Source of the DNA: Pseudomonadota bacterium
GTDB lineage: Bacteria > Pseudomonadota > Gammaproteobacteria > Burkholderiales > Burkholderiaceae_C
Length of the DNA stretch: 12,229 bases
Assembly (NCBI GenBank): GCA_023394015.1
Contig: JAEXBL010000220.1
Location: 1 to 12,229 of the forward strand
Reading direction: 5' to 3'
Each line of letters starts with the position of its first letter. Position 1 is the stretch's first letter. Below are positions 1 to 12,229 of this stretch, in pieces. Made by a program: the position numbers and the translations under genes. The notes beneath the pieces are model-generated. The model was not told the DNA's origin. It ran no database searches and saw nothing but the letters and a program-made list of their open reading frames with translations.

Positions 1-2991
1 CACACCGGGGTCGCCCTGCGCGACTACGTCGCGCTGTTGAGCGCCCCGCGTTTGGCGCCCAGCGTGCAAGAACCGCGCGCCACCTACCACGCCCAACACT
101 CAACGTCCCACGCTGAACCTGCCATCGAGATCGTCCACGCCCGCGAACACAACCTGAAGAACCTCAGCGTCGACATTCCGCGCGGCAAGTTCAACGTCAT
201 CACCGGCGTCAGCGGCTCGGGCAAGAGCACGCTGGCCTTCGACATCCTGTTCAACGAGGGGCAGCGGCGCTACCTGGAATCGCTCAACGCCTACGCGCGC
301 AGCATCGTGCAGCCGGCGGGCCGGCCCGAGGTGGACGCGGTGTACGGCATTCCGCCCACCGTGGCGATCGAGCAGCGCCTGTCGCGCGGCGGACGCAAGT
401 CCACCGTGGGCACCACCACCGAGGTGTGGCACTTTCTGCGCCTGCTCTACGTCAAGCTGGGCGTGCAGCACTGCGTGCACGATGGTGCCGCCGTGCAGCC
501 GCAAACGCCCGAGCGCATCGCGGCGCAGATCATGACGCGCTTTCGCGGCCAGACCATCGGCCTGCTGGCGCCCCTGGTGGTGGGCCGCAAGGGCGTCTAC
601 ACCGAGCTGGCCGACTGGGCGCGCCCGCGCGGCTTCACCCACCTGCGGGTCGACGGCGAGTTTCTGCCGACCACCGGCTTTCCGCGCATCGCCCGCTTCA
701 AGGAACACACCATCGAGCTGCCGGTGATGAGCCTGGCGGTGACGCCGGGTAACGAGGTGCAATTGCGCGAATCGCTGGCGCGCGCGCTGGAGCACGGCAA
801 GGGCGTGGTGCATGTGCTGCACGACATCGCCGGCTTGCGCAACGCGATGGAGACGGGGCAGCCCACGGCGGGCATCGGCCGGATCGAGGTGTTCTCCACC
901 AAGCGCGCCTGCCCGGTGTGCGCCACCTCGTACGCCGAGCTCGACCCGCGCCTGTTCTCGTACAACAGCAAGCACGGTTGGTGCCCGGACTGCGTGGGCA
1001 CCGGCGTCAAGCTCACGCGCGAGCAGCGCAAGGCGCTTGACGATTCGGTGCTGGCCGACGACCAGAAGGGCCGCGAGCAGACCTTTGCCGAACCCGAGGT
1101 AGAGGACGTGGGCGACGTGGTGTGCCCGACGTGCCAGGGCACGCGGCTCAATCCGGTTGCCCGCGCGGTGCGCTTGGAGGTTGAGCGTTCGGCGTTGGGC
1201 GTTGAGGGTGGCGAGGGCGTGGCGATCACTGAACTGGCCCGCCTCAGCGTGAGCGAGTTGCGCGCCTGGTTCGACCGCCTGCAACTGCATGGCCGCGACG
1301 CCGACATCGCGCGCGACCTGATCCCCGAGATCAGGAGCCGGCTCGACTTTCTGGTGCAGGTCGGCCTGGGCTACCTCACGCTCGACCGCGGCGCGCCCAG
1401 CTTGAGCGGCGGCGAGGCGCAGCGCATCCGCCTGGCGGCGCAACTGGGCAGCAACCTGCAGGGCGTGTGCTATGTGCTCGACGAGCCGACCATCGGCCTG
1501 CACGCGCGCGACAACCAGATCCTGCTGAACGCGCTGCACACGCTGAGCGACAAGAGCAACACCCTGGTGGTGGTGGAGCACGACGAGGACACCATCCGCC
1601 GCGCTGAGCACCTGATCGACATCGGCCCCGGCGCCGGCGTGCGCGGCGGCCGGCTGTTGGCCGAGGGCACGGCGGCCGACCTGGAGGCGGCGCCCGATTC
1701 CGCCACCGGGCGCTACCTGCGCGATGCCATGCGGCACCCGATGCAGGAGCGGCGCGTGGTGCAAGCGCCGCAGCCCCTCACCCCAGCCCCCGGATCCAGT
1801 CCGGCGCCGGCGCTCTCCCCAGAGGAACGAGGGAGCGCAACCAAAAAGGGGCGCGGGAACAAGCCGGCATGGCCCCCTCTCCCGCTGGCGGGAGAGGGCA
1901 GGGGTGAGGGCAGCGGCGCCACCGCAGAGCCGTCATGGCTCACCGTCCTCGGCGCGCACCTGCACAACCTGAAGCACATCGACGTCGCCGTGCCACTGAA
2001 GCGCCTGGTGGCCGTCACCGGCGTCAGCGGCTCAGGCAAGTCCACGCTGGCGCGCGACGTGCTGCTGGCCAACGTGGCGGCCTGGGTCGGCCAGCGCGCC
2101 ACCCGGGCCGGACGCGAGGCGATGGACGCCGGCAAGGCGCCGGCGCTGGCGGGTTGCACCGGCCTGAAAGGCTTCGAGGGCATCGACCGCGTGCTCGAAG
2201 TCGACCAGACGCCGATCGGCAAGACGCCGCGCTCCTGCCCCGCCACCTACATCGGCTTCTGGGACACGGTGCGGCGCCTGTTCGCCGACACGCTGGAGGC
2301 CAGGGCGCGCGGCTACGCGCCGGGGCGCTTCAGCTTCAACACCGGCGAGGGCCGCTGCCCCAGTTGCGAGGGCCAAGGCGTGCGCACCATCGCCATGAGC
2401 TTTCTGCCCGACGTGAAGGTGCCGTGCGAGGTCTGCCACGGCGCGCGCTTCAACCCCGAGACGCTGGCCGTCACCTGGCGCGGCAAGAACATTGGCGAGG
2501 TGCTGCAGATGGAGGTGGACGAGGCGGTCGAGTTCTTCGCCAGCATGCCCGCCATCGCCCACCCGCTGCAACTGCTCAAGGACGTGGGCCTGGGCTACCT
2601 CACGCTCGGCCAGCCGTCGCCCACGCTCTCCGGCGGCGAGGCGCAGCGCATCAAGCTGGTCACCGAGCTCAGCAAGGTGCGCGACGACGTCGGCCGGCGC
2701 GGCCAGCGCACACCGCACACGCTGTACGTGCTGGACGAACCCACCGTCGGCCTGCACATGCAGGACGTGGAAAAGCTCATCCGCGTGCTGCACCGCCTGG
2801 TCGATGGCGGGCAGAGCGTGATCGTGATCGAGCACGACCTCGACCTGATCGCCGAGGCCGACTGGATCATCGACCTCGGCCCCGAAGGTGGCGACGCCGG
2901 CGGCCAACTGGTGGCCACCGGCACGCCCGAAGACGTGGTGCGCGCCGGCACGCACACCGGGCGGGCGCTCAGGCCCGTGCTGTCACGCTGA
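1..2991 (+). CDS. uvrA: UvrA excinuclease subunit A, 3' part of an apparent tandem-duplicated UvrA (5' end outside window)
   Basis: DNA-damage recognition ATPase of nucleotide excision repair, working in the cytoplasm with UvrB. The frame is open from base 1, with no stop before 2989-2991. The first codons read HTGVALRDY, which resembles a UvrA C-terminus (this protein itself ends near [12 protein letters not shown]). A complete second UvrA unit follows a short linker. In that unit: Walker [10 protein letters not shown] (205-231), a UvrB-binding-like insertion including [11 protein letters not shown] (about 565-730), zinc cysteine codons at 910, 919, 982 and 991, ABC signature LSGGEAQR near 1402, Walker [11 protein letters not shown] and VVVEHD. 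The second half has Walker A at 2020-2046, zinc cysteines at 2356, 2365, 2425 and 2434, signature LSGGEAQR near 2626, [10 protein letters not shown] and VIVIEHD. The second unit alone is about 980 residues against about 940 for an ordinary UvrA. All ATPase and zinc motifs are intact, so it looks functional. A TTG at 37 could be mistaken for a start, but it lies inside the open frame. The two-unit reading depends on sequence left of the window. Confidence 0.93.
84..118 (+). repeat. Imperfect heptamer run, five units (GCYCAAC-like), in the uvrA inter-unit linker
   Basis: Five consecutive 7-base units can be read: ctaccac, gcccaac, actcaac, gtcccac, gctgaac. They encode the low-complexity linker (around [12 protein letters not shown]) just before the conserved start of the second UvrA unit. 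The reverse complement (GTTGRGC-like) matches the run at 1180-1207. A unit of 7 is not a multiple of 3, so any unit gain or loss would shift the frame, but the units are degenerate, which should limit slippage. Confidence 0.6.
1180..1207 (+). repeat. Imperfect heptamer run, four units (GTTGRGC-like), inside uvrA
   Basis: Four consecutive heptamers: gttgagc, gttcggc, gttgggc, gttgagg. They encode the segment [12 protein letters not shown] between the [11 protein letters not shown] motif and the conserved [14 protein letters not shown] stretch. From memory, ordinary UvrA proteins have a shorter connection here, so it reads as a small insertion in a surface loop. It is the opposite-strand version of the run at 84-118. 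Confidence 0.6.
1775..1910 (+). repeat. 136-bp REPIN/MITE-like palindromic element inserted in frame in the uvrA coding sequence
   Basis: The ends form a 15-bp inverted repeat with one A/A mismatch: ccctcaccccagccc (1775-1789) against gggcaggggtgaggg (1896-1910). Inside the right end is a strong hairpin, 11-bp arms 1875-1885 and 1888-1898 around two bases. The encoded peptide includes ALSPEERGS and [12 protein letters not shown], strings familiar from translated palindromic repeats that are common in proteobacterial intergenic DNA. It lies between the two ATPase halves of the second UvrA unit, after the last conserved segment of the first half and before [15 protein letters not shown]. The tetramer cagc flanks both ends (1771-1774, 1911-1914) and could be a target duplication, but this is weak. 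No transposase is encoded. Confidence 0.75.
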
Positions 2992-3825
2992 AGGGCGGCC
3001 GAGGCTCCGGTCGGCCAGCAAGCGCCGCGCCAGCTCGGCAAAGCCCGCGCCGCGCTCGCCCCGCGTCACATGGCGTGGCTTGAAACGCAACTGCGCCTCG
3101 AAGCGGCGGATGTTGGCCACGCCCACGCTGTGCCTGAAATGCTCGAACATCACCTGGTCGTTGGTCGAGTCGCCCACGTAGACCCAGCGCGCGATGTCGG
3201 CCGCCAGGTCGATGCCCAGCAGCTCGCGCGCGATCCAGCACGCGCCCTGCCACTTGTCGTGCGCGCCGATCCAGCCGTTGACGTGGATGCTGCTCACGCT
3301 GGCGTTCAGCCCTTCGTCGCGCATCACCGCCACGACCCGCGCGATCTGCGCGTCGCTCAGTTGGGCGAACTCGCTGTGGTCGATGGCGATGTCGGTCTCG
3401 CGCCCGGCCGAATCCTGCGCCAGCGTGGCACCGGGTACCTCGCGCAGCACGCGCGCGGCCGTGTGCTGCAGGTGGGAAAAATTCCTGACGCGCGTGGCCT
3501 CGCTCTGTTGATACAGCTTTGACAGCTGCCCGCGCTCTTCCACCAAAGCCACGGCGCCGTTCTCGGCCACGATGGCGCGCAGCGGCCAGCGCAGGGCAAA
3601 GGGCTCGCTCCAGCCCACCGGCCGGCCGGTGACGGCGATTAACGTCAGCCCCGCGCGCTGCAGCTCGTGCAGCGCGGCCAGCGCCTCGGGCGTGATGGCC
3701 CCCTCGCTGGTCAGCGTGTCATCGATGTCGGTGAACACGCCCACCACCTGCGCCCAGGCGCCGGGTTCCAACTGCTGCAGCGGGATCAGGGCAGGGCTCC
3801 GTTCGGTCGTGCGTCGGCGCTGCAC
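2983..3825 (-). CDS. HAD-superfamily phosphatase (HAD-IIB, sugar-phosphatase-like)
   Basis: 280-residue cytoplasmic protein with the haloacid dehalogenase motifs: motif I DIDDTLT (nucleophile D33, general acid/base D35), motif II VTGR (T66), a candidate motif III lysine K191, and motif IV GDSTNDQ (D219, D223). The cap between motifs II and III fits the IIB group, which includes sucrose-, trehalose- and mannosyl-3-phosphoglycerate phosphatases; the substrate here cannot be named. The GTG start at 3825 lies 6 bases after the stop of the GT2 gene, so it is probably the last gene of that operon and translationally coupled. A GAAGG lies 3 bases before the GTG, rather close, and another near start is possible because the first 28 residues precede the conserved core. 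Its stop overlaps the 3' end of uvrA by 9 bp in convergent orientation. A link to sugar-phosphate turnover for the neighbouring glycosyltransferases is inference. Confidence 0.85.
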
Positions 3826-3831
3826 GCGCCT

Positions 3832-4821
3832 TCAATGCCGGGGCGGCGAGAAGCGGTCGTCATCCAGGTCGGCCAGGTCGTTGCTCAGCGGCTCGGTCGG
3901 CACGTGCTCCACGTCGTGGTGCAGAAAGGCGATCAGGAACTGGATGCCGATGATCAGCGGCAGCGCCGCCAGCATCACCGTGCCGCTGGTCGCCGGCAGG
4001 CCGCTGACACTGCTGCGCACCCATTGCACACCGCCGAACACCACACCCACCGCGCACAGCAGCAGGCCCAGCAGGCTGTACAGGCTGCCGATGTTGAAGT
4101 CGCGCAGCAGGTACAGGTAGACGTAGCGCTTGAAGAAGCGATTGGCGTGCTTGAGCATGAACTCCGGCAGCACCTTGGACACCTTCAGGCTCGATTCCTC
4201 GTCGGCGTAGACGGCGTCCATCGGCACGTCGTGCACCACGGCGCGGATGGTATTGAGGTGGTAGAGCATGTCGGTCTCGAAGAAGTAGCGCCGCTCCAGC
4301 TTGTGGATCGGCAGCTCGCGCAGCACCGCGGGGTGGATGGCGGTGTAGCCGTTGGTCGGGTCCATGATCGACCAGTAGCCGGTGCTCAGCTTGTTGATGA
4401 ACGACTGCGCCGCGTTGCCGAACAGCCGGATCGGCGGCATGCCCTTGAGCGATTCGGGCCGGTAGAAGCGGTTGCCCTTGGTGTAGTCGGCCCGGCCGCG
4501 CTCGATGGGGCGGGTGAAGTGCGGAATCAGCGCCGGGTCCATCTGCCCATCACCATCGACCTTGACGACGATGTCCATGCCTTCTTCCAGCGCCGCGCGA
4601 TAGCCCGTGCTCACCGCGCCGCCTACGCCCTGGTTCTCCTCATGAAACAGCACGCGCACGCGCGGGTCGTGGCACTGCTCCTGCACGAGCTGCCCGCTGT
4701 GCTGCGGGCATTGGTCGTCCACCACGTAGATGCGCTGCACCTGCGGCGGGATGCGCGCGATCACGTCCAGCACGTGGGCGCGGACCTTGTAGCTGGGGAT
4801 GACGGCGGCGATGCGCGACAT
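3832..4821 (-). CDS. GT2 family glycosyltransferase, GtrB/DPM1-like polyprenyl-phosphate sugar synthase
   Basis: 329 residues. A GT-A catalytic domain (about residues 1-230) starts with AAVIPSYKV, has the nucleotide-binding pair D35-D36 in YVVDDQCPQ, and the metal-binding DxD in VDGDGQMDP (D89, D91). The segment SIMDPTNGYTAI and the downstream RRYFFETD are typical of dolichyl/undecaprenyl-phosphate sugar synthases. Two hydrophobic segments at the C-terminus (about 244-267 and 281-301) should anchor it in the inner membrane, as in GtrB-type proteins. Expected role: transfer of a sugar from a nucleotide donor to polyprenyl phosphate on the cytoplasmic face; the sugar is unknown. The frame is open upstream, but the ATG at 4821 is chosen because the conserved fold starts there and a purine-rich ribosome site precedes it. 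It starts 2 bases after the transporter gene stop and is followed by the HAD gene. Confidence 0.9.
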   Translation of the reverse strand: MSRIAAVIPSYKVRAHVLDVIARIPPQVQRIYVVDDQCPQHSGQLVQEQCHDPRVRVLFHEENQGVGGAVSTGYRAALEEGMDIVVKVDGDGQMDPALIPHFTRPIERGRADYTKGNRFYRPESLKGMPPIRLFGNAAQSFINKLSTGYWSIMDPTNGYTAIHPAVLRELPIHKLERRYFFETDMLYHLNTIRAVVHDVPMDAVYADEESSLKVSKVLPEFMLKHANRFFKRYVYLYLLRDFNIGSLYSLLGLLLCAVGVVFGGVQWVRSSVSGLPATSGTVMLAALPLIIGIQFLIAFLHHDVEHVPTEPLSNDLADLDDDRFSPPRH

Positions 4822-4823
4822 GC

Positions 4824-5180
4824 TCAGGCGCTCCCCCCGCTGGACGCGAGTGCGACGCCAGCCAGTATCAGCGAGCCCCCCACCAGCGATTGCCAAGTCA
4901 GCGGCTCGCCCAGCAACCACCACGCCAGCAGGGGCACGATGATGAAAGCCAGGCCCATGAAAGGGTAGGCGATGTGCAGCGGCGCATGCCGCAGTATCCA
5001 GATCCAGCCCAGCGTGGTCATGGCGTAGAGCCCCAGGGATGCAAGCAGCCAGCCGTTGCACAGCCAATCGGTTAGCTGTGCCTGCGCCGGCAGTGAGTTG
5101 GCGGCCTGCTTGAACATCAGCTGGCCTGCCGAGATGCACAGCACGCACAAAAGCGTCAAGGAGCTGAGGGCAATACTCAT
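4824..5180 (-). CDS. Small four-helix EamA/SMR-type membrane transporter, possible lipid-sugar flippase (ArnE/ArnF-like)
   Basis: 118 residues, almost entirely hydrophobic, with four likely membrane helices (about 4-22, 41-62, 69-90 and 96-113). Family features are the early SAGQLMFKQAA and the C-terminal AYPFMGLAFIIVPLLAW, LLGEPLTW and GGSLILAGVAL, the usual EamA half-repeat pattern. Proteins this short normally dimerise. Known small EamA members include ArnE/ArnF, which flip undecaprenyl-phosphate-aminoarabinose. Placed between a polyprenyl-phosphate sugar synthase and a GT-C transferase, flipping of the lipid-linked sugar is the natural inference, but export of another small molecule cannot be excluded. 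The ATG at 5180 is chosen over an earlier in-frame start because it follows the upstream stop by 7 bases and has a GAAG 5 bases upstream (5186-5189). Confidence 0.85.
   Translation of the reverse strand: MSIALSSLTLLCVLCISAGQLMFKQAANSLPAQAQLTDWLCNGWLLASLGLYAMTTLGWIWILRHAPLHIAYPFMGLAFIIVPLLAWWLLGEPLTWQSLVGGSLILAGVALASSGGSA
4831..4838 (-). promoter_or_regulatory. Ribosome binding site of the GT2 gene
   Basis: The purine run GGGGGGAG on the minus strand lies 9 bases before the ATG at 4821, inside the end of the transporter gene. It supports the short start over the upstream open frame, which would overlap the transporter by more than 300 bases. Confidence 0.6.
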
Positions 5181-5187
5181 GATGTCT

Positions 5188-7152
5188 TCAAGGTTCGGCG
5201 TGCAGGTAGGGGTTGATGGGCACGCCATGCAAAAGGAAGTCCCGCGCGGCCTCGCCCATCGTGATCTGCCGCATCTCCATGCCTTGCCATTGCAGCGTCG
5301 TGCCTGCCGGGCAGTTGAATGTCAGCGTGATGCGGGCCACGTCCGCCGTTGGGCGCATCGTGCCGTTGGCACCAAGCATGTAGGTGGTGGCCACCCCGGA
5401 GGGTACGGCATCGATCCATGGGGTTGGCGAATACCAGTTGATCTCGTCTGCGTGAGGCTCGACCGACATGCGCACGCGCGTGCACCGAGAAGGCGCCTTG
5501 CTTGCGGGTATGGCCATCGCCAACCGCATGCGCCAAAACGCATCCTGCATCGACGTCCATGGCACAGCTTGTGAGGAGGCATCCATGGCTATCACAAGCG
5601 TCGCGGGCTCGCTCGTCAGCGTCCAGGTGGCCTCACCGGTCGGCTGCATGCCATGGCTTTCAAGCACCGCAAACTGGGTGGACGGTACCAGCGCAGCACT
5701 TGGCCCCGGGCGGTACGGGTCCAGTCGCCATGTGTCGCGGCGGACGGCGTGCGCGGTCCAGGCGTGCGCCAGATAGATCAGGGCGAGGACAGCGAGTACG
5801 CGCCAAGCCATGCCGATGCGCAAGCGCTGCGGCCAGAAGTTGCCCTGGACCCAATAGGCCACGGACAGGCCAGTCAAGGCGATCAACCAAGGTTCGATGA
5901 AATAGCTGGCATACCGTGTGTTGTAGAGGATGGGCGTCAACTGGACGGCCATGCCCAATACGGCCAGCAGCATCAAGACGTACACGAACAACTTTTGACG
6001 TGTCGTCGTGTGAGGCCCAGGCAAGCGAACGGGTTGGCTCGTCAATCCCTTGACGGTGACAGCCAGGGCGAACAGGCCGATGGCCAGCCATTCAAACGTT
6101 CTCACAATCCGTATCTTTCTGTTCAGGAACAACTCGGGCGTCGACGTGAACAGCCAGCCTTTGAGCTTGAGTCCGAAAAACGCGAGGTTGTCGGACAGGC
6201 TCGTCTGTTTCACGATTTCCATTGCCACCATGCGGTTAATGGCATCCGAGCGGATGTCAAGCGGCTGCCCGCCAGTTTCGGGTGCAACCGCCTTGGGGGC
6301 GACATCGGCATCGAAAGTGAAGTTGGAGAACGTGGGGTCGGAGCCGTTCTTGAACGGACTCACGCCGTAGTAAAGGCCAGATCCGCTGCCGGTGCCCAGA
6401 CCCCAGACGTCAAAACAAACCCCGTTCTTGACGACGAAGGCCAAGGGCACAACAAGCGACACGAGCAGAGCCGCAAGCCAGGCCTTGGTCGCTTGTCGCT
6501 CGCCGGCGGGCCGATGGCGGGCCATGAGCACCCACGCGGTGAGCAGCGCCACGCATGCCACCAACATGTATTGCAGAACCGGGCGGGTGAGCAAGGTGAT
6601 GTCGAGCGCCAGCACAAGCGCCGCCAGCCACCGGGCCCGAGCATCGGGGTCGGTCCACGCGCGCTGCGCCGCATACATGGCCAGTGTCAGGCCAAAAAAA
6701 TACGGAGCCTCCGTCAGAACCTGGGGTGCATAACTGGCGATGTCAGGATGGAAGAGCAGCAGCGCCGTCGAGATGAACGCTGCCAGCGTGCCGCCCAGTC
6801 GTCGGACGAAGGACCAGAGCAACAGCATGCCCAACAAGAACAGCACGCCGTTGGCGATTTGAATGCTGGCCCGATCGGCGCCAAGCATCGCTGGCCAGAT
6901 ATAGGTCAGCGGCGGCACATGGTAGCTCTGGGGGTCGCTGGTCAAGAAGTGCCAAGGTGCGTCCAGCAGCTTTCTCGCGCTCGGCAGGTAGGTCCAGAAG
7001 GCGTCTGAGTTCAGCTCCGTATCAAGGGGCGGGTAGACGCGCTGGAGGCGCCTCGCGGCCATCCACAGCAGAAAAGTCAACAGCGCCCCCGTCACCCATG
7101 TCGAAGGTGGCGGCATGGGCTCTCGGACGATGCTTGCTGGGCGACGGGTCAT
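5188..7152 (-). CDS. GT-C fold integral-membrane glycosyltransferase (ArnT/GT39-like)
   Basis: About 654 residues from the ATG at 7152. The N-terminal two thirds hold roughly ten or more hydrophobic segments, beginning with GALLTFLLWMAARRL. The first periplasmic loop carries acidic residues in DTELNSDAFWTYLP (D44, E46, D50), the position where GT-C enzymes such as ArnT keep the catalytic or metal-binding acids. A long loop around SPFKNGSDPTFSNFTFDAD and a soluble C-terminal domain of about 180 residues complete the protein. Expected role: transfer of a polyprenyl-phosphate-linked sugar to an envelope acceptor on the periplasmic side; acceptor and sugar are unknown. The start is uncertain: a GTG at 7209 (673 residues) and an ATG at 7116 are also possible, and none has a clear ribosome site. 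It follows prfC by 72 bases (15 from the GTG) with no visible terminator. Hand-counted GC in 60-base lines at 6001, 6121 and 6181 is 62, 53 and 53 percent, lower than the 68 percent of a line in ahcY (9541). Confidence 0.85.
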   Translation of the reverse strand: MTRRPASIVREPMPPPSTWVTGALLTFLLWMAARRLQRVYPPLDTELNSDAFWTYLPSARKLLDAPWHFLTSDPQSYHVPPLTYIWPAMLGADRASIQIANGVLFLLGMLLLWSFVRRLGGTLAAFISTALLLFHPDIASYAPQVLTEAPYFFGLTLAMYAAQRAWTDPDARARWLAALVLALDITLLTRPVLQYMLVACVALLTAWVLMARHRPAGERQATKAWLAALLVSLVVPLAFVVKNGVCFDVWGLGTGSGSGLYYGVSPFKNGSDPTFSNFTFDADVAPKAVAPETGGQPLDIRSDAINRMVAMEIVKQTSLSDNLAFFGLKLKGWLFTSTPELFLNRKIRIVRTFEWLAIGLFALAVTVKGLTSQPVRLPGPHTTTRQKLFVYVLMLLAVLGMAVQLTPILYNTRYASYFIEPWLIALTGLSVAYWVQGNFWPQRLRIGMAWRVLAVLALIYLAHAWTAHAVRRDTWRLDPYRPGPSAALVPSTQFAVLESHGMQPTGEATWTLTSEPATLVIAMDASSQAVPWTSMQDAFWRMRLAMAIPASKAPSRCTRVRMSVEPHADEINWYSPTPWIDAVPSGVATTYMLGANGTMRPTADVARITLTFNCPAGTTLQWQGMEMRQITMGEAARDFLLHGVPINPYLHAEP

Positions 7153-7224
7153 GTCTGGGTGCGGAAGGTCGATGCGGAATCGGTGGAGCTGTGCCGGGCG
7201 TTCAGCCACGCTGGCGCTGCGGCC

Positions 7225-8943: not shown

Positions 8944-8949
8944 TATAAT
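8944..8949 (+). promoter_or_regulatory. Likely -10 box (TATAAT) of the ahcY-tlyA-metF promoter
   Basis: An exact TATAAT stands out in very GC-rich DNA and lies so that transcription would start around 8955-8958, right at the 5' edge of the riboswitch P1 stem. No good -35 hexamer is visible at 16-18 bases spacing; TGTCGA at 8925-8930 is only 13 bases away. An activator or a weak -35 is possible. Confidence 0.6.
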
Positions 8950-8959
8950 CAGTAGCTTT

Positions 8960-9037
8960 CCGAGGAGCGTTGCAGCGCCTGCAAGCACAGCCAGGCGTGA
9001 GGCTCGGAACCGGCGCACCCGCCTTGCAACGACGCTC
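8960..9037 (+). promoter_or_regulatory. SAH (S-adenosylhomocysteine) riboswitch aptamer
   Basis: The RNA folds as the SAH riboswitch class known upstream of ahcY. P1: CCGAG (8960-8964) with CTCGG (9003-9007), extendable by two U-A pairs at 8958-8959/9008-9009. P2: CGCCTG (8976-8981) with CAGGCG (8992-8997). An optional hairpin GGCG/CGCC lies at 9012-9015/9020-9023. Pseudoknot: GAGCGT (8965-8970) with ACGCTC (9032-9037). As I recall the consensus, the 5' strand reads GAGGAGCGCUGC and the 3' strand AACGGCGCUC; here the outer pair is U-A instead of C-G, a compensatory change. The segment AGGCTCGG (9000-9007) is conserved. It binds SAH, the substrate of the enzyme encoded downstream, and no coding gene competes for this region. 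Confidence 0.9.
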
Positions 9038-9068
9038 ACCCACTGATCGCGTGTGGTGAGCTTTTTTT
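9034..9068 (+). terminator. Intrinsic terminator, expression platform of the SAH riboswitch
   Basis: GCTCACC (9034-9040) pairs perfectly with GGTGAGC (9055-9061), three further pairs CAC/GTG stack inside past a bulged T, and seven T follow (9062-9068). The left arm shares 9034-9037 with the 3' strand of the aptamer pseudoknot, so the two structures exclude each other. With SAH bound the hairpin cannot form and ahcY is transcribed. This matches the known ON-type logic of the class. Confidence 0.85.
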
Positions 9069-9104
9069 CATCCCGTCAGTGGTTTTTTCAAATGCCTTGC
9101 CTTT

Positions 9105-9108
9105 GGAG
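9105..9108 (+). promoter_or_regulatory. Ribosome binding site of ahcY
   Basis: GGAG, 6 bases before the ATG at 9115. It fixes this start against an earlier in-frame GTG at 9079, which lies just behind the terminator T-tract and has no ribosome site. Confidence 0.75.
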
Positions 9109-9114
9109 CAAACC

Positions 9115-10551
9115 ATGAACGCACCCCTGAAAAACCCCGTGGCCGCCGATTCGGCCATTGCCGACATCAACCTGGCCGCCTGGGGCCGCAAGGAAATCCA
9201 GATCGCCGAGCACGAGATGCCCGGCCTGATGGCCATCCGCGCCGAATTCGCCAAGAAGAAGCCGCTGAAGGGCGCGCGCATCACCGGCAGCCTGCACATG
9301 ACGATCCAGACCGCGGTGCTGATCGAGACCCTGCAGGCCCTGGGCGCCGAGGTGCGCTGGGCCTCGTGCAACATCTTCAGCACCCAGGACCACGCCGCCG
9401 CGGCGATTGCCGCCAATGGCACGCCGGTGTTCGCCATCAAGGGCGAGTCGCTGAAGGACTACTGGGACTACACGCACCGCATCTTCGAGTTCGGCAAGAA
9501 GGGCAGCAAGGGCGAAGGCCCCAACATGATCCTGGACGACGGCGGCGACGCAACTCTGCTGCTGCACCTGGGCCAGAAGGCCGAGAAGGACCCCAAGGTG
9601 CTGGCCAAGCCGAGCAGCGAGGAAGAGAAGGTGCTGTTCGCCGCCATCCAGGCCAAGCTGAAGGAAGATCCCAGCTGGTACAGCCGCAAGAGCGCCGAGA
9701 TCATCGGCGTGACCGAGGAAACCACCACCGGCGTGCACCGCCTGAAGGAGATGAGCGCCGCCGGCACGCTGCTGTTCCGCGCCATCAACGTCAACGACTC
9801 GGTCACCAAGTCCAAGTTCGACAACCTCTACGGCTGCCGCGAGTCGCTGGTGGATGGGATCAAGCGCGCCACCGACGTGATGGTGGCCGGCAAGATCGCC
9901 GTGGTCTGCGGCTATGGCGACGTCGGCAAGGGCAGTGCCCAGGCGCTGCGCGCGCTGTCGGCCCAGGTGTGGGGGACCGAGATCGACCCCATCTGCGCGC
10001 TGCAGGCGGCCATGGAAGGCTACCGCGTGGTCACCATGGAAGAGGCCGCGCCGCTGGCCGACATCTTCGTCACCGCCACCGGCAACAAGGATGTCATCAC
10101 CTACAAGCACATGAAGGCGATGAAGAACGAGGCCATCGTCTGCAACATCGGTCACTTCGACAACGAGATCGACGTCGCCAGCCTGGAAGCCAAGTGCCAG
10201 TGGGAAGAGATCAAGCCGCAAGTCGATCACGTGATCTTCAAGGGCGGCAAGCGCATCATCCTGCTGGCCAAGGGCCGGCTGGTGAACCTGGGCTGCGCCA
10301 CCGGCCACCCCAGCTACGTGATGAGTTCCAGCTTCGCCAACCAGACCATCGCGCAGATCGAGCTGTTCACCCGCCCGGGCGACTACGAGGTCGGCCAGGT
10401 CTACGTGCTGCCCAAGCACCTGGATGAGAAGGTCGCGCGCCTGCAGCTGGCCACGCTCAACGCCCAATTGACCGAGCTGACCACCGCGCAGGCCAAGTAC
10501 ATCGGCGTGCCCAAGCAGGGGCCGTACAAGCCGGATACCTACCGCTATTGA
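9115..10551 (+). CDS. ahcY: Adenosylhomocysteinase (S-adenosyl-L-homocysteine hydrolase)
   Basis: 478-residue cytoplasmic NAD-dependent enzyme that splits SAH into adenosine and homocysteine, relieving product inhibition of methyltransferases. Seen: HMT (H61), DDGGD (141-145), EETTTGVH (201-208), the catalytic block [11 protein letters not shown] with K232, D236, N237 and C241 (equivalents of K186, D190, N191 and C195 of the human enzyme), the NAD-binding loop GYGDVGKG (266-273), IGHFD (H347), and the C-terminal KPDTYRY, whose lysine and tyrosine contact NAD of the neighbouring subunit in the tetramer. The extra segment of about 40 residues near 150-195 is usual for bacterial members. It is the first gene behind the SAH riboswitch, which should raise its expression when SAH accumulates, and is followed by tlyA and metF on the same strand. 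No key residue is missing. Confidence 0.98.
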
Positions 10552-10678: not shown

Positions 10679-11464
10679 ATGCGCGCCGACCAGCTCCTCG
10701 TTGAACGCGGCTTGGCCGCAAGCCGCAGCCAGGCGCAGCGGCTGATCGCGGCCGGCGCGCGCTGGCTGTCGCCGGGCGGCTGGAAGGCGCTGGCCAAGAG
10801 CGATGACTTGCCGCTGCACGCCGAGGTCGAGTTGCTCGACGCGTCGGAAGCGCGCTACGTCTCGCGCGGTGGGCTGAAGCTGGAAGGCGCCTTGCGCGCC
10901 ACCGGCCTGCGGGTTGCCGGCTGGCATTGCTTGGACGTCGGCCAGTCCACCGGCGGCTTCACCGACTGCCTGCTGCAGCACGGCGCCGCCAGCGTGCTGG
11001 GTGTGGACGTGGGCCACGGCCAACTGCATCCCCGGCTGCGCGGCGACGCGCGGGTGCGGGTGCTGGAAGGCGTCAATGCGCGGCACCTCAAGGATGGCGA
11101 CCTGATGGCGGCCCATCCAGGCAGCGGCCCGGATGCGCGCTTCGAGCTCATCGTCGGCGACCTGTCCTTCATCTCGCTCACGCTGGTGCTGCCGGCGCTG
11201 GCGCCGCTGCTTCAAACAGATGGCCACCTGCTGCTGCTGGTCAAGCCGCAGTTCGAACTGCAACCGGCGCAGATCGGCAAGGGCGGCATCGTGCGCGACG
11301 CGGCGCTGTACGCCGAAGTCGAGCAACGCCTGCGCGGCGCCTGCGCCGATGCCGGCCTGGCCGTGCGGCATTGGCTGCCCAGCCCCATCGCCGGCGGCGA
11401 CGGCAACCGCGAGTTCTTCATTCACGCGGCCGCGGCAGCGGCCTCACCGGACACTGCACCATGA
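10679..11464 (+). CDS. tlyA: TlyA-family S4/FtsJ-domain rRNA 2'-O-methyltransferase
   Basis: 261 residues. An N-terminal S4 RNA-binding domain (about 1-60, RADQLLVERGLAASRSQAQ) is followed by an FtsJ/RrmJ-type methyltransferase domain. The SAM loop reads LDVGQSTGGFTD (85-96). The K-D-K-E tetrad expected of 2'-O-methyltransferases is visible as K67 (SRGGLKL), D161 (GDLSFISL), K189 (LVKPQFE) and E245 (GNREFF). In mycobacteria TlyA methylates cytidines in 16S and 23S rRNA; the shorter type modifies 23S only, and which applies here cannot be told. The family is often annotated as hemolysin A, a name that is probably misleading. The ATG at 10679 directly follows the palindrome region and has no clear ribosome site. 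The stop overlaps the metF start (ATGA), suggesting translational coupling. The enzyme uses SAM and makes SAH, which fits an SAH-controlled operon. Confidence 0.92.
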   Translation: MRADQLLVERGLAASRSQAQRLIAAGARWLSPGGWKALAKSDDLPLHAEVELLDASEARYVSRGGLKLEGALRATGLRVAGWHCLDVGQSTGGFTDCLLQHGAASVLGVDVGHGQLHPRLRGDARVRVLEGVNARHLKDGDLMAAHPGSGPDARFELIVGDLSFISLTLVLPALAPLLQTDGHLLLLVKPQFELQPAQIGKGGIVRDAALYAEVEQRLRGACADAGLAVRHWLPSPIAGGDGNREFFIHAAAAAASPDTAP

Positions 11465-12229
11465 GTTTCCCGATCAGCCTTGAGTTCTTTCCCCCCAAAA
11501 CCCCCGAAGGCGCGGCCAAGCTGCGCGCCGTGCGGCAAAAGCTGTATGCGCTCAAGCCCGAGTTTTGCTCCGTCACCTTCGGCGCCGGCGGTTCGACGCA
11601 GGAGGGCACGCTGGACACCGTGGGCGAAGTCATTGGCGAAGGCCTGTGCGGCGTGCCGCACCTGTCCTGCATCGGCCAGACCGCGGACAGCATGCGCCAG
11701 CGCCTGGCCACCTACCGCGAAGCCGGCGTCAAGCGCATCGTGGCGCTGCGCGGCGACCTGCCCAGCGGCTACGGCCTGGGCGGCGAGTTCCGCTACGCCA
11801 GCGACCTGGTGGCCTTCATCCGCGCCGAAACCGGCGACCACTTTCAGCTGGCCGTCGCCGCCTACCCCGAGTTCCACCCGCAGGCGCGCTCGCCCGAGGC
11901 CGACATCGACGCCTTCGTCACCAAGGTGCGCAACGGCGCCGACGTTGGCATCACCCAGTACTTCTTCAACGCCGACGCCTACTTCCACTTCGTCGATGAA
12001 CTGCGCCGCCGCGGCATCGACACGCCCATCGTGCCGGGCATCATGCCGATCACCAACTCCACCCAGTTGCTGCGCTTTTCCGACGCCTGCGGCGCCGAGG
12101 TGCCGCGCTGGATCCGGCTGCGCCTGCAGGCCTTCGGCGACGACACGGCGGCCATCAAGGACTTTGGCGCCGACGTGGTGACCGAGCTGTGCCAGCGCCT
12201 GCGCGCCGGCGGCGCGCCCAGCCTGCACT
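11461..12229 (+). CDS. metF: 5,10-methylenetetrahydrofolate reductase (3' end outside window)
   Basis: FAD enzyme that reduces methylene-THF to 5-methyl-THF, the methyl donor for homocysteine in methionine synthesis. 256 residues are visible of a probable 275-300; the frame is still open at the right edge. Family landmarks: SLEFFPPK with E8 (equivalent of catalytic E28 in E. coli MetF), SVTFGAGGS (37-45), HLSCIG (67-72), ALRGDLP with D99 (equivalent of D120), AAYPEFHP, GITQYFF with Q166 (equivalent of Q183), and VPGIMPI (191-197). The TIM-barrel core is complete apart from the last helix or helices. The ATG overlaps the tlyA stop in an ATGA arrangement and has no separate promoter, so it is likely co-transcribed with ahcY and tlyA under the SAH riboswitch. 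Confidence 0.96.
   Translation, partial: MSFPISLEFFPPKTPEGAAKLRAVRQKLYALKPEFCSVTFGAGGSTQEGTLDTVGEVIGEGLCGVPHLSCIGQTADSMRQRLATYREAGVKRIVALRGDLPSGYGLGGEFRYASDLVAFIRAETGDHFQLAVAAYPEFHPQARSPEADIDAFVTKVRNGADVGITQYFFNADAYFHFVDELRRRGIDTPIVPGIMPITNSTQLLRFSDACGAEVPRWIRLRLQAFGDDTAAIKDFGADVVTELCQRLRAGGAPSLH

Follow-up and report, generated by a model that had tools for sequence, protein, structure and literature searches.

An SAH riboswitch in front of ahcY whose pseudoknot strand also begins a probable terminator and is followed by a conserved competing stem

The class of SAH riboswitches is described as an ON switch, which raises the expression of ahcY, in the excerpted text of PMC7057144, and the ON logic on which the initial annotation of the locus described here was built is supported by this source. 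According to the excerpts of PMC4239095, the core targets of SAH riboswitches are ahcY and metF, and in Comamonadaceae MetH and a COG1189 methyltransferase are also among the targets. Since ahcY, metF and COG1189, which are shared with the present locus, are already listed there, the regulon is known; no expression platform is described in these excerpts. In Burkholderia cenocepacia, an SAH RNA of 119 nt is reported in the available part of PMC4603805, and this length, which is an inference of its authors, is compatible with attenuation. Related layouts are found outside the class. For the crcB and pfl motifs, predicted terminators overlap the conserved fold, and the ligand should raise expression as in our locus; these are other RNA classes, however, and have no stems like B or C in the part of PMC2864571 at hand. 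In the Guanidine-IV riboswitch, a ligand-promoted pseudoknot likewise opposes an intrinsic terminator, but according to the excerpt of PMC10907184 it takes the terminator loop, whereas the pseudoknot studied here takes the left arm of the terminator. No description of stems A, B and C was found in the literature searched, a search whose reach did not extend to the founding SAH papers, and the novelty of stems B and C is unproven.

The window, which is the whole analysed stretch of 12,229 nucleotides, was searched with all Rfam families using cmscan, and RF01057, the SAH riboswitch, was the sole match at E ≤ 1. It covers the complete model (positions 1 to 78) on the + strand and scores 60.8 bits, above the cut-off of 37 (E 1.9e-9), so that the identification as SAH riboswitch, for which the initial annotation had proposed this covariance-model check, stands. 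The same is true for P1, P2, the optional stem, the pseudoknot and the TATAAT box, all of which were found where they had been placed (Table 1). The whole aptamer model, the pseudoknot and the position before ahcY are the same as in the RF01057 class: 70 bases separate the match from the start of ahcY, whose product scores above the TIGR00936 cut-off, which agrees with the expected location of the class. The model ends at about position 9044, and stems A, B and C lie outside of it. Judged by its sequence, the element is a genuine member of the SAH riboswitch class, presumably binds SAH and is probably joined to a terminator. When the entire leader was folded without allowing pseudoknots, another structure resulted, which was not better than shuffles (z -0.72).

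Table 1. Positions of the riboswitch, its downstream stems and the genes that follow, numbered from the first base of the window.
Feature	Position	Strand	Basis	Remark
-10 box TATAAT	8944..8949	+	read off sequence	
SAH riboswitch aptamer, RF01057	8956..9044	+	cmscan, 60.8 bits	
P1	8958-8963/9004-9009	+	RF01057 alignment	
Pseudoknot 5' strand GAGCGT	8965..8970	+	sequence, RF01057 match, leader comparison	
P2	8976-8981/8992-8997	+	RF01057 alignment	
Optional 4-bp stem	9012-9015/9020-9023	+	read off sequence	
Pseudoknot 3' strand ACGCTC	9032..9037	+	sequence, RF01057 match, fold, leaders	9034-9037 also begin hairpin A
Hairpin A, anti-pseudoknot hairpin and terminator stem	9034..9061 (9034-9043/9051-9061)	+	fold, conservation	core GCTCACC 9034-9040 / GGTGAGC 9055-9061; extension CAC 9041-9043 / GTG 9051-9053; T9054 bulged
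Stem B left arm CCACTGAT	9040..9047	+	comparison and fold	9040-9043 shared with A
Seven T, likely intrinsic termination site	9062..9068	+		no gap after hairpin A
Stem B right arm GTCAGTGG	9075..9082	+		9079-9082 shared with C; then six T, 9083-9088
Stem C left arm	9079..9092	+	fold, comparison	outer pairs 9079-9085/9110-9116
Stem C right arm	9102..9116	+		inner pairs 9086-9092/9102-9108 over the Shine-Dalgarno sequence (GGAG, 9105-9108); covers first two start-codon bases (codon at 9115-9117); C9109 bulged
ahcY, adenosylhomocysteinase	9115..10551	+	TIGR00936 599.9 bits, cut-off 497.6; PF05221	
TlyA-type rRNA methyltransferase gene	10679..11464	+	TIGR00478 169.1 bits, below cut-off 185.8; FtsJ and S4 domains	
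metF	11461..12229	+	PF02219 254.5 bits	runs past window end

For the comparison, the best 80 of 253 loci were taken as named relatives, and a model made from 28 aptamers (alignment A2, which leaves out L010, L024 and L025) placed an aptamer 5' of ahcY in 79 of them. The sole named locus without aptamer, L058, lies on a contig labelled Bacteroidales, encodes an AhcY that is 84% identical to that of the window and is possibly mis-binned. Together with the window, the 79 relatives yielded 76 unique leaders, whose start codons were set by a script rule; four leaders of more than 130 nt were left out of the pairing, arm-exchange and exposure tests, which were thus made with 72. A further alignment, A3, was built from 32 similarly spaced leaders selected after inspecting the sequences, namely 23 of the 76 leaders and nine of 30 loci among the matches listed; L028, in which the pseudoknot strand was mislocated, is not part of it, and L032, whose start was placed late, was shortened by ten bases. 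Further regions were chosen by hand from among the matches listed. Among the best 80 of 253 loci, the nearest relatives are Ottowia and its kin, with AhcY proteins up to 93% identical, and the AhcY tree, made from 76 proteins, joins the window to Ottowia beijingensis (L032) and L031 (97/91).

The pseudoknot between the strand joining P1 and P2 and the 3' strand has six of six pairs in the window. Its outer U-A pair, 8970-9032, had been read as a compensatory change, which is right in kind; the U, however, is the usual base, as the 5' side is U in all 76 unique leaders, facing A (33 leaders), G (39) or U (four), so that this sixth pair is U-A or U-G in 72 of 76. The pair was therefore dropped as an unusual feature. 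All 80 leaders, window included, have a TANNNT box within the 20 bases 5' of the aptamer, which reads TATAAT in 24; going by the position of the -10 box, the RNA would probably begin at or near the first aptamer base.

The 3' strand of the pseudoknot runs into hairpin A, and bases 9034-9037 are common to both structures. Hairpin A has a folding energy of -16.1 kcal/mol (z -3.9), which was reached by none of 200 shuffles, and together with the seven T that follow it shows the layout of an intrinsic terminator, a GC-rich hairpin and then a T run. Sequence and fold thus confirm that a probable terminator hairpin with seven T shares 9034-9037 with the pseudoknot, as had been proposed. In a survey of T runs on both strands beyond the first 40 bases of each, a -14.7 kcal/mol hairpin lay 5' of two of the seven runs of at least five T in the window: the seven T at 9062-9068 and, on the - strand, a run of five at 1847 with an irregular hairpin. 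A simple promoter and terminator scan, whose rule needs an unbroken stem and a loop of 3-8 bases, listed neither element.

Hairpin A is kept in most relatives, far more often than by chance. It forms at least six pairs in 67 of 72 leaders (21.5 in shuffles), and 95.3% of its cells are paired in the 32 rows of A3, compared with at most 52.8% in slid controls; here and for the stems below, the pair columns were set on the window sequence, which favours the unslid structure. Two-sided changes affect six cells on A3 versus 1.5 in shuffles. Exchanging the arms of A between leaders revealed no covariation (7.25 versus 7.16, sd 0.19, ten distinct left arms) because the left arm is nearly constant; this line of support was dropped, and A rests on its conservation and the few two-sided changes. 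A run of at least five T after hairpin A is found in only eight of 76 leaders, namely those of the window, L031, L032, L036, L042, L076, L101 and L110, with 5-7 T in L031, L032 and L036; as background, 3.1% of eleven-base leader stretches contain such a run. Mapped onto the AhcY tree, the trait requires six changes, a little below the mean of 7.7 for shuffled labels, of which 12 in 500 were as low. Within the Ottowia group, the T run by which A would become a terminator occurs in some members, together with the window, and elsewhere its occurrence is patchy. Since A is kept in most relatives and the T run in few, termination would be a patchy addition, and A seems to be conserved for something besides termination.

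The leaders can also form a second stem, B. Just 3' of the pseudoknot strand lies a C-rich stretch that can form at least six pairs with a downstream stretch in 55 of 72 leaders, whereas the chance level in shuffles was 10.3 leaders and at most 17; the partner stretch ends 13 to 45 bases 5' of the start codon. When left arms were combined with the right regions of other leaders (32 distinct left arms), the score fell from 6.30 for own arms to 4.36 for exchanged ones (sd 0.19), and the highest of 2000 permutations reached 5.06. On A3, 92.7% of the cells of stem B are paired (slid controls at most 51.6%), with 27 two-sided changed cells versus 11.1 in shuffles; pairs with a two-sided change number three versus 2.7. 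In the window, stem B is intact with eight pairs. It does not touch the bases of the pseudoknot, but as it uses 9040-9043 of hairpin A, A and B are mutually exclusive. In the comparison, stem B is thus conserved and strongly covarying, and its formation would exclude A. Six T at 9083-9088 adjoin the right arm of B, and at least five T follow B in nine of 76 leaders.

Stem C shares 9079-9082 with the right arm of B, so that B and C are mutually exclusive as well. Support for stem C is weaker than for B. Its seven outer pairs are 81.0% paired on A3 (slid controls at most 63.2%), where stem C is blurred by some start codons being out of register, and 11 two-sided changed cells compare with 5.6 in shuffles. 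Own arms scored 5.72, exchanged arms 5.16 (sd 0.13, highest 5.65). C is less secure than B because the context of the start codon is itself constrained and because the controls leave relatedness in. Around the start codon, from -45 to +6, the leaders fold only slightly better than their shuffles, with a mean z of -0.50 (standard error 0.13).

The exchange between the three stems was followed in folds with the 3' strand of the pseudoknot either free or withheld. In the window leader cut after B, hairpin A is the best fold with the strand free (-16.5) and stem B with the strand withheld (-15.8). With the strand withheld, the best fold contains stem B in all of the 58 leaders that have at least six B pairs, likewise cut after B; with the strand free it does so in 46, which leaves 12 full switches. 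In 18 of the 55 complete leaders, withholding the strand brought a gain in B above 0.3, and in one a loss of that size; C fell by more than 0.1 in 23 and rose by more than 0.1 in one. In this test of complete leaders, withholding the strand is almost bound to favour B, so that the direction of the outcome is partly built in. At equilibrium, B rises from 0.00 to 0.13 and C falls from 0.86 to 0.73 in the complete window leader. Across 72 leaders, the mean gain in exposure of the Shine-Dalgarno sequence was 0.057 versus 0.012 in shuffles (Wilcoxon p 0.001, relatedness ignored). In these folds, the direction agrees with an ON switch and the equilibrium effect is modest. As the B/C exchange at equilibrium is small in the window, a working relay would here have to depend on the order in which the RNA is made: the choice of termination at 9062-9068 would precede the right arm of B, which in turn would precede the right arm of C.

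Sequence and comparison together show the aptamer, the shared strand, hairpin A and the seven T after it, and stem B, which is conserved and covaries; SAH binding, termination and the B/C exchange we infer. On balance, we favour the explanation that the SAH riboswitch raises ahcY-tlyA-metF upon build-up of SAH via terminator A and the exchange between A, B and C. With SAH, the pseudoknot would be stabilised, leaving GCUC at 9034-9037 unable to start hairpin A; RNA polymerase would pass 9068, and stem B could form beside the pseudoknot and oppose stem C. Without SAH, transcription would end at 9062-9068 because of hairpin A, and in any RNA that extends past this site C would mask the Shine-Dalgarno sequence and the start codon. 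The A-B-C exchange would be a widespread layer among the relatives. Several observations speak against this explanation: the small B/C exchange at equilibrium in the window, the absence of covariation when the arms of A are exchanged, the small mean gain in Shine-Dalgarno exposure, the runs of at least five T after B (9/76), which the model explains only through C pairing, and the presence of B in the best fold of 46 of the 58 cut leaders even when the strand is free.

A purely transcriptional ON switch, in which the pseudoknot competes with terminator A and stems B and C have no role in the species of the window, would fit the strong hairpin A with its seven T and the fact that C barely shifts at equilibrium in the window (0.86 to 0.73); we regard it as unlikely, however, as B is conserved and covarying in relatives and intact in the window with its eight pairs, and as A is mostly retained without a T run. 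The reverse, a mainly translational switch with an incidental T run and little termination at A, would account for the 68 of 76 leaders that lack at least five T after A and for the folds in which C covers the ribosome site. It appears improbable, since a strong hairpin directly followed by seven T is the usual terminator layout and the T run recurs in the close relatives L031, L032 and L036. It is very improbable that SAH turns the operon off, with B and its six T as the terminator and A as the antiterminator: at least five T follow B about as often as A (9/76 and 8/76) and B is the best fold with the pseudoknot strand withheld, but the six T at 9083 have no abutting hairpin that passes the simple hairpin filter, the U run belongs to C pairing, and SAH riboswitches are described as raising ahcY in the excerpt of PMC7057144.

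That the riboswitch exerts transcriptional control over ahcY-tlyA-metF had been suggested before; the operon itself is borne out by profile matches, but a purely transcriptional control is too narrow, because A is mostly kept without the T run and B and C reach the Shine-Dalgarno sequence and the start codon. COG1189 corresponds to the TlyA group. Upstream, prfC (release factor 3) lies on the opposite strand. Further genes on the - strand at 2986-7209 encode a HAD-IIB hydrolase, a family 2 glycosyltransferase, an ArnE/ArnF-like small EamA-type transporter and a PMT_2-type membrane protein and may constitute an envelope-sugar modification cluster. A UvrA-type gene at 37-2988 is above the TIGR00630 cut-off and below that of NF001503, and its translation contains a Pro/Ala/Gly-rich stretch at about residues 580-635.

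Other SAH riboswitches may make different use of the same hairpin. Fourteen second copies were fetched, 13 of which were counted since L139 precedes ahcY. In 11 of these 13 copies, which do not stand before ahcY (L138, L140, L141, L142 and L144-L150), GGTGAG of the right arm of A occupies the Shine-Dalgarno position a few bases before ATG, and, going by this placement, hairpin A would act there as a direct mask of the ribosome site. The two downstream proteins scanned, those of L138 and L148, have the Pterin_bind domain, as expected for MetH, which they probably are. In other families of the order, hairpins formed with the pseudoknot strand lead into stretches of T, L128 and L120 being the clearest cases, so that terminator versions seem to have arisen there too. 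Tandem RF01057 matches precede ahcY in four of ten loci scanned (L115, L128, L029 and L135), the second match of L135 being barely over the cut-off (38.8 versus 37). In L128, the first match is followed by a pseudoknot-strand hairpin and seven T, and a transcriptional unit may thus precede a second unit.

As both the aptamer and the genes it targets were known before, the finding in its first form is a fairly ordinary one. The present analysis contributes a testable account of the coupling between the SAH pseudoknot and expression: hairpin A is followed by a T run here, in second copies it lies over the Shine-Dalgarno sequence, and next to it in ahcY leaders stands a covarying, competing stem. 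The expression platform looks richer than the earlier reading held. It is tempting, though tentative and a little short of an even chance, to propose that in Comamonadaceae and neighbouring families the ahcY leader contains a chain of pseudoknot, A, B and C that relays the state of the aptamer over about 70 bases to the ribosome site, and that in a few lineages a T run at A has made a terminator, so that one strand serves both controls. If this is true, small changes 3' of one existing hairpin could take a riboswitch class from translational to transcriptional output or back.
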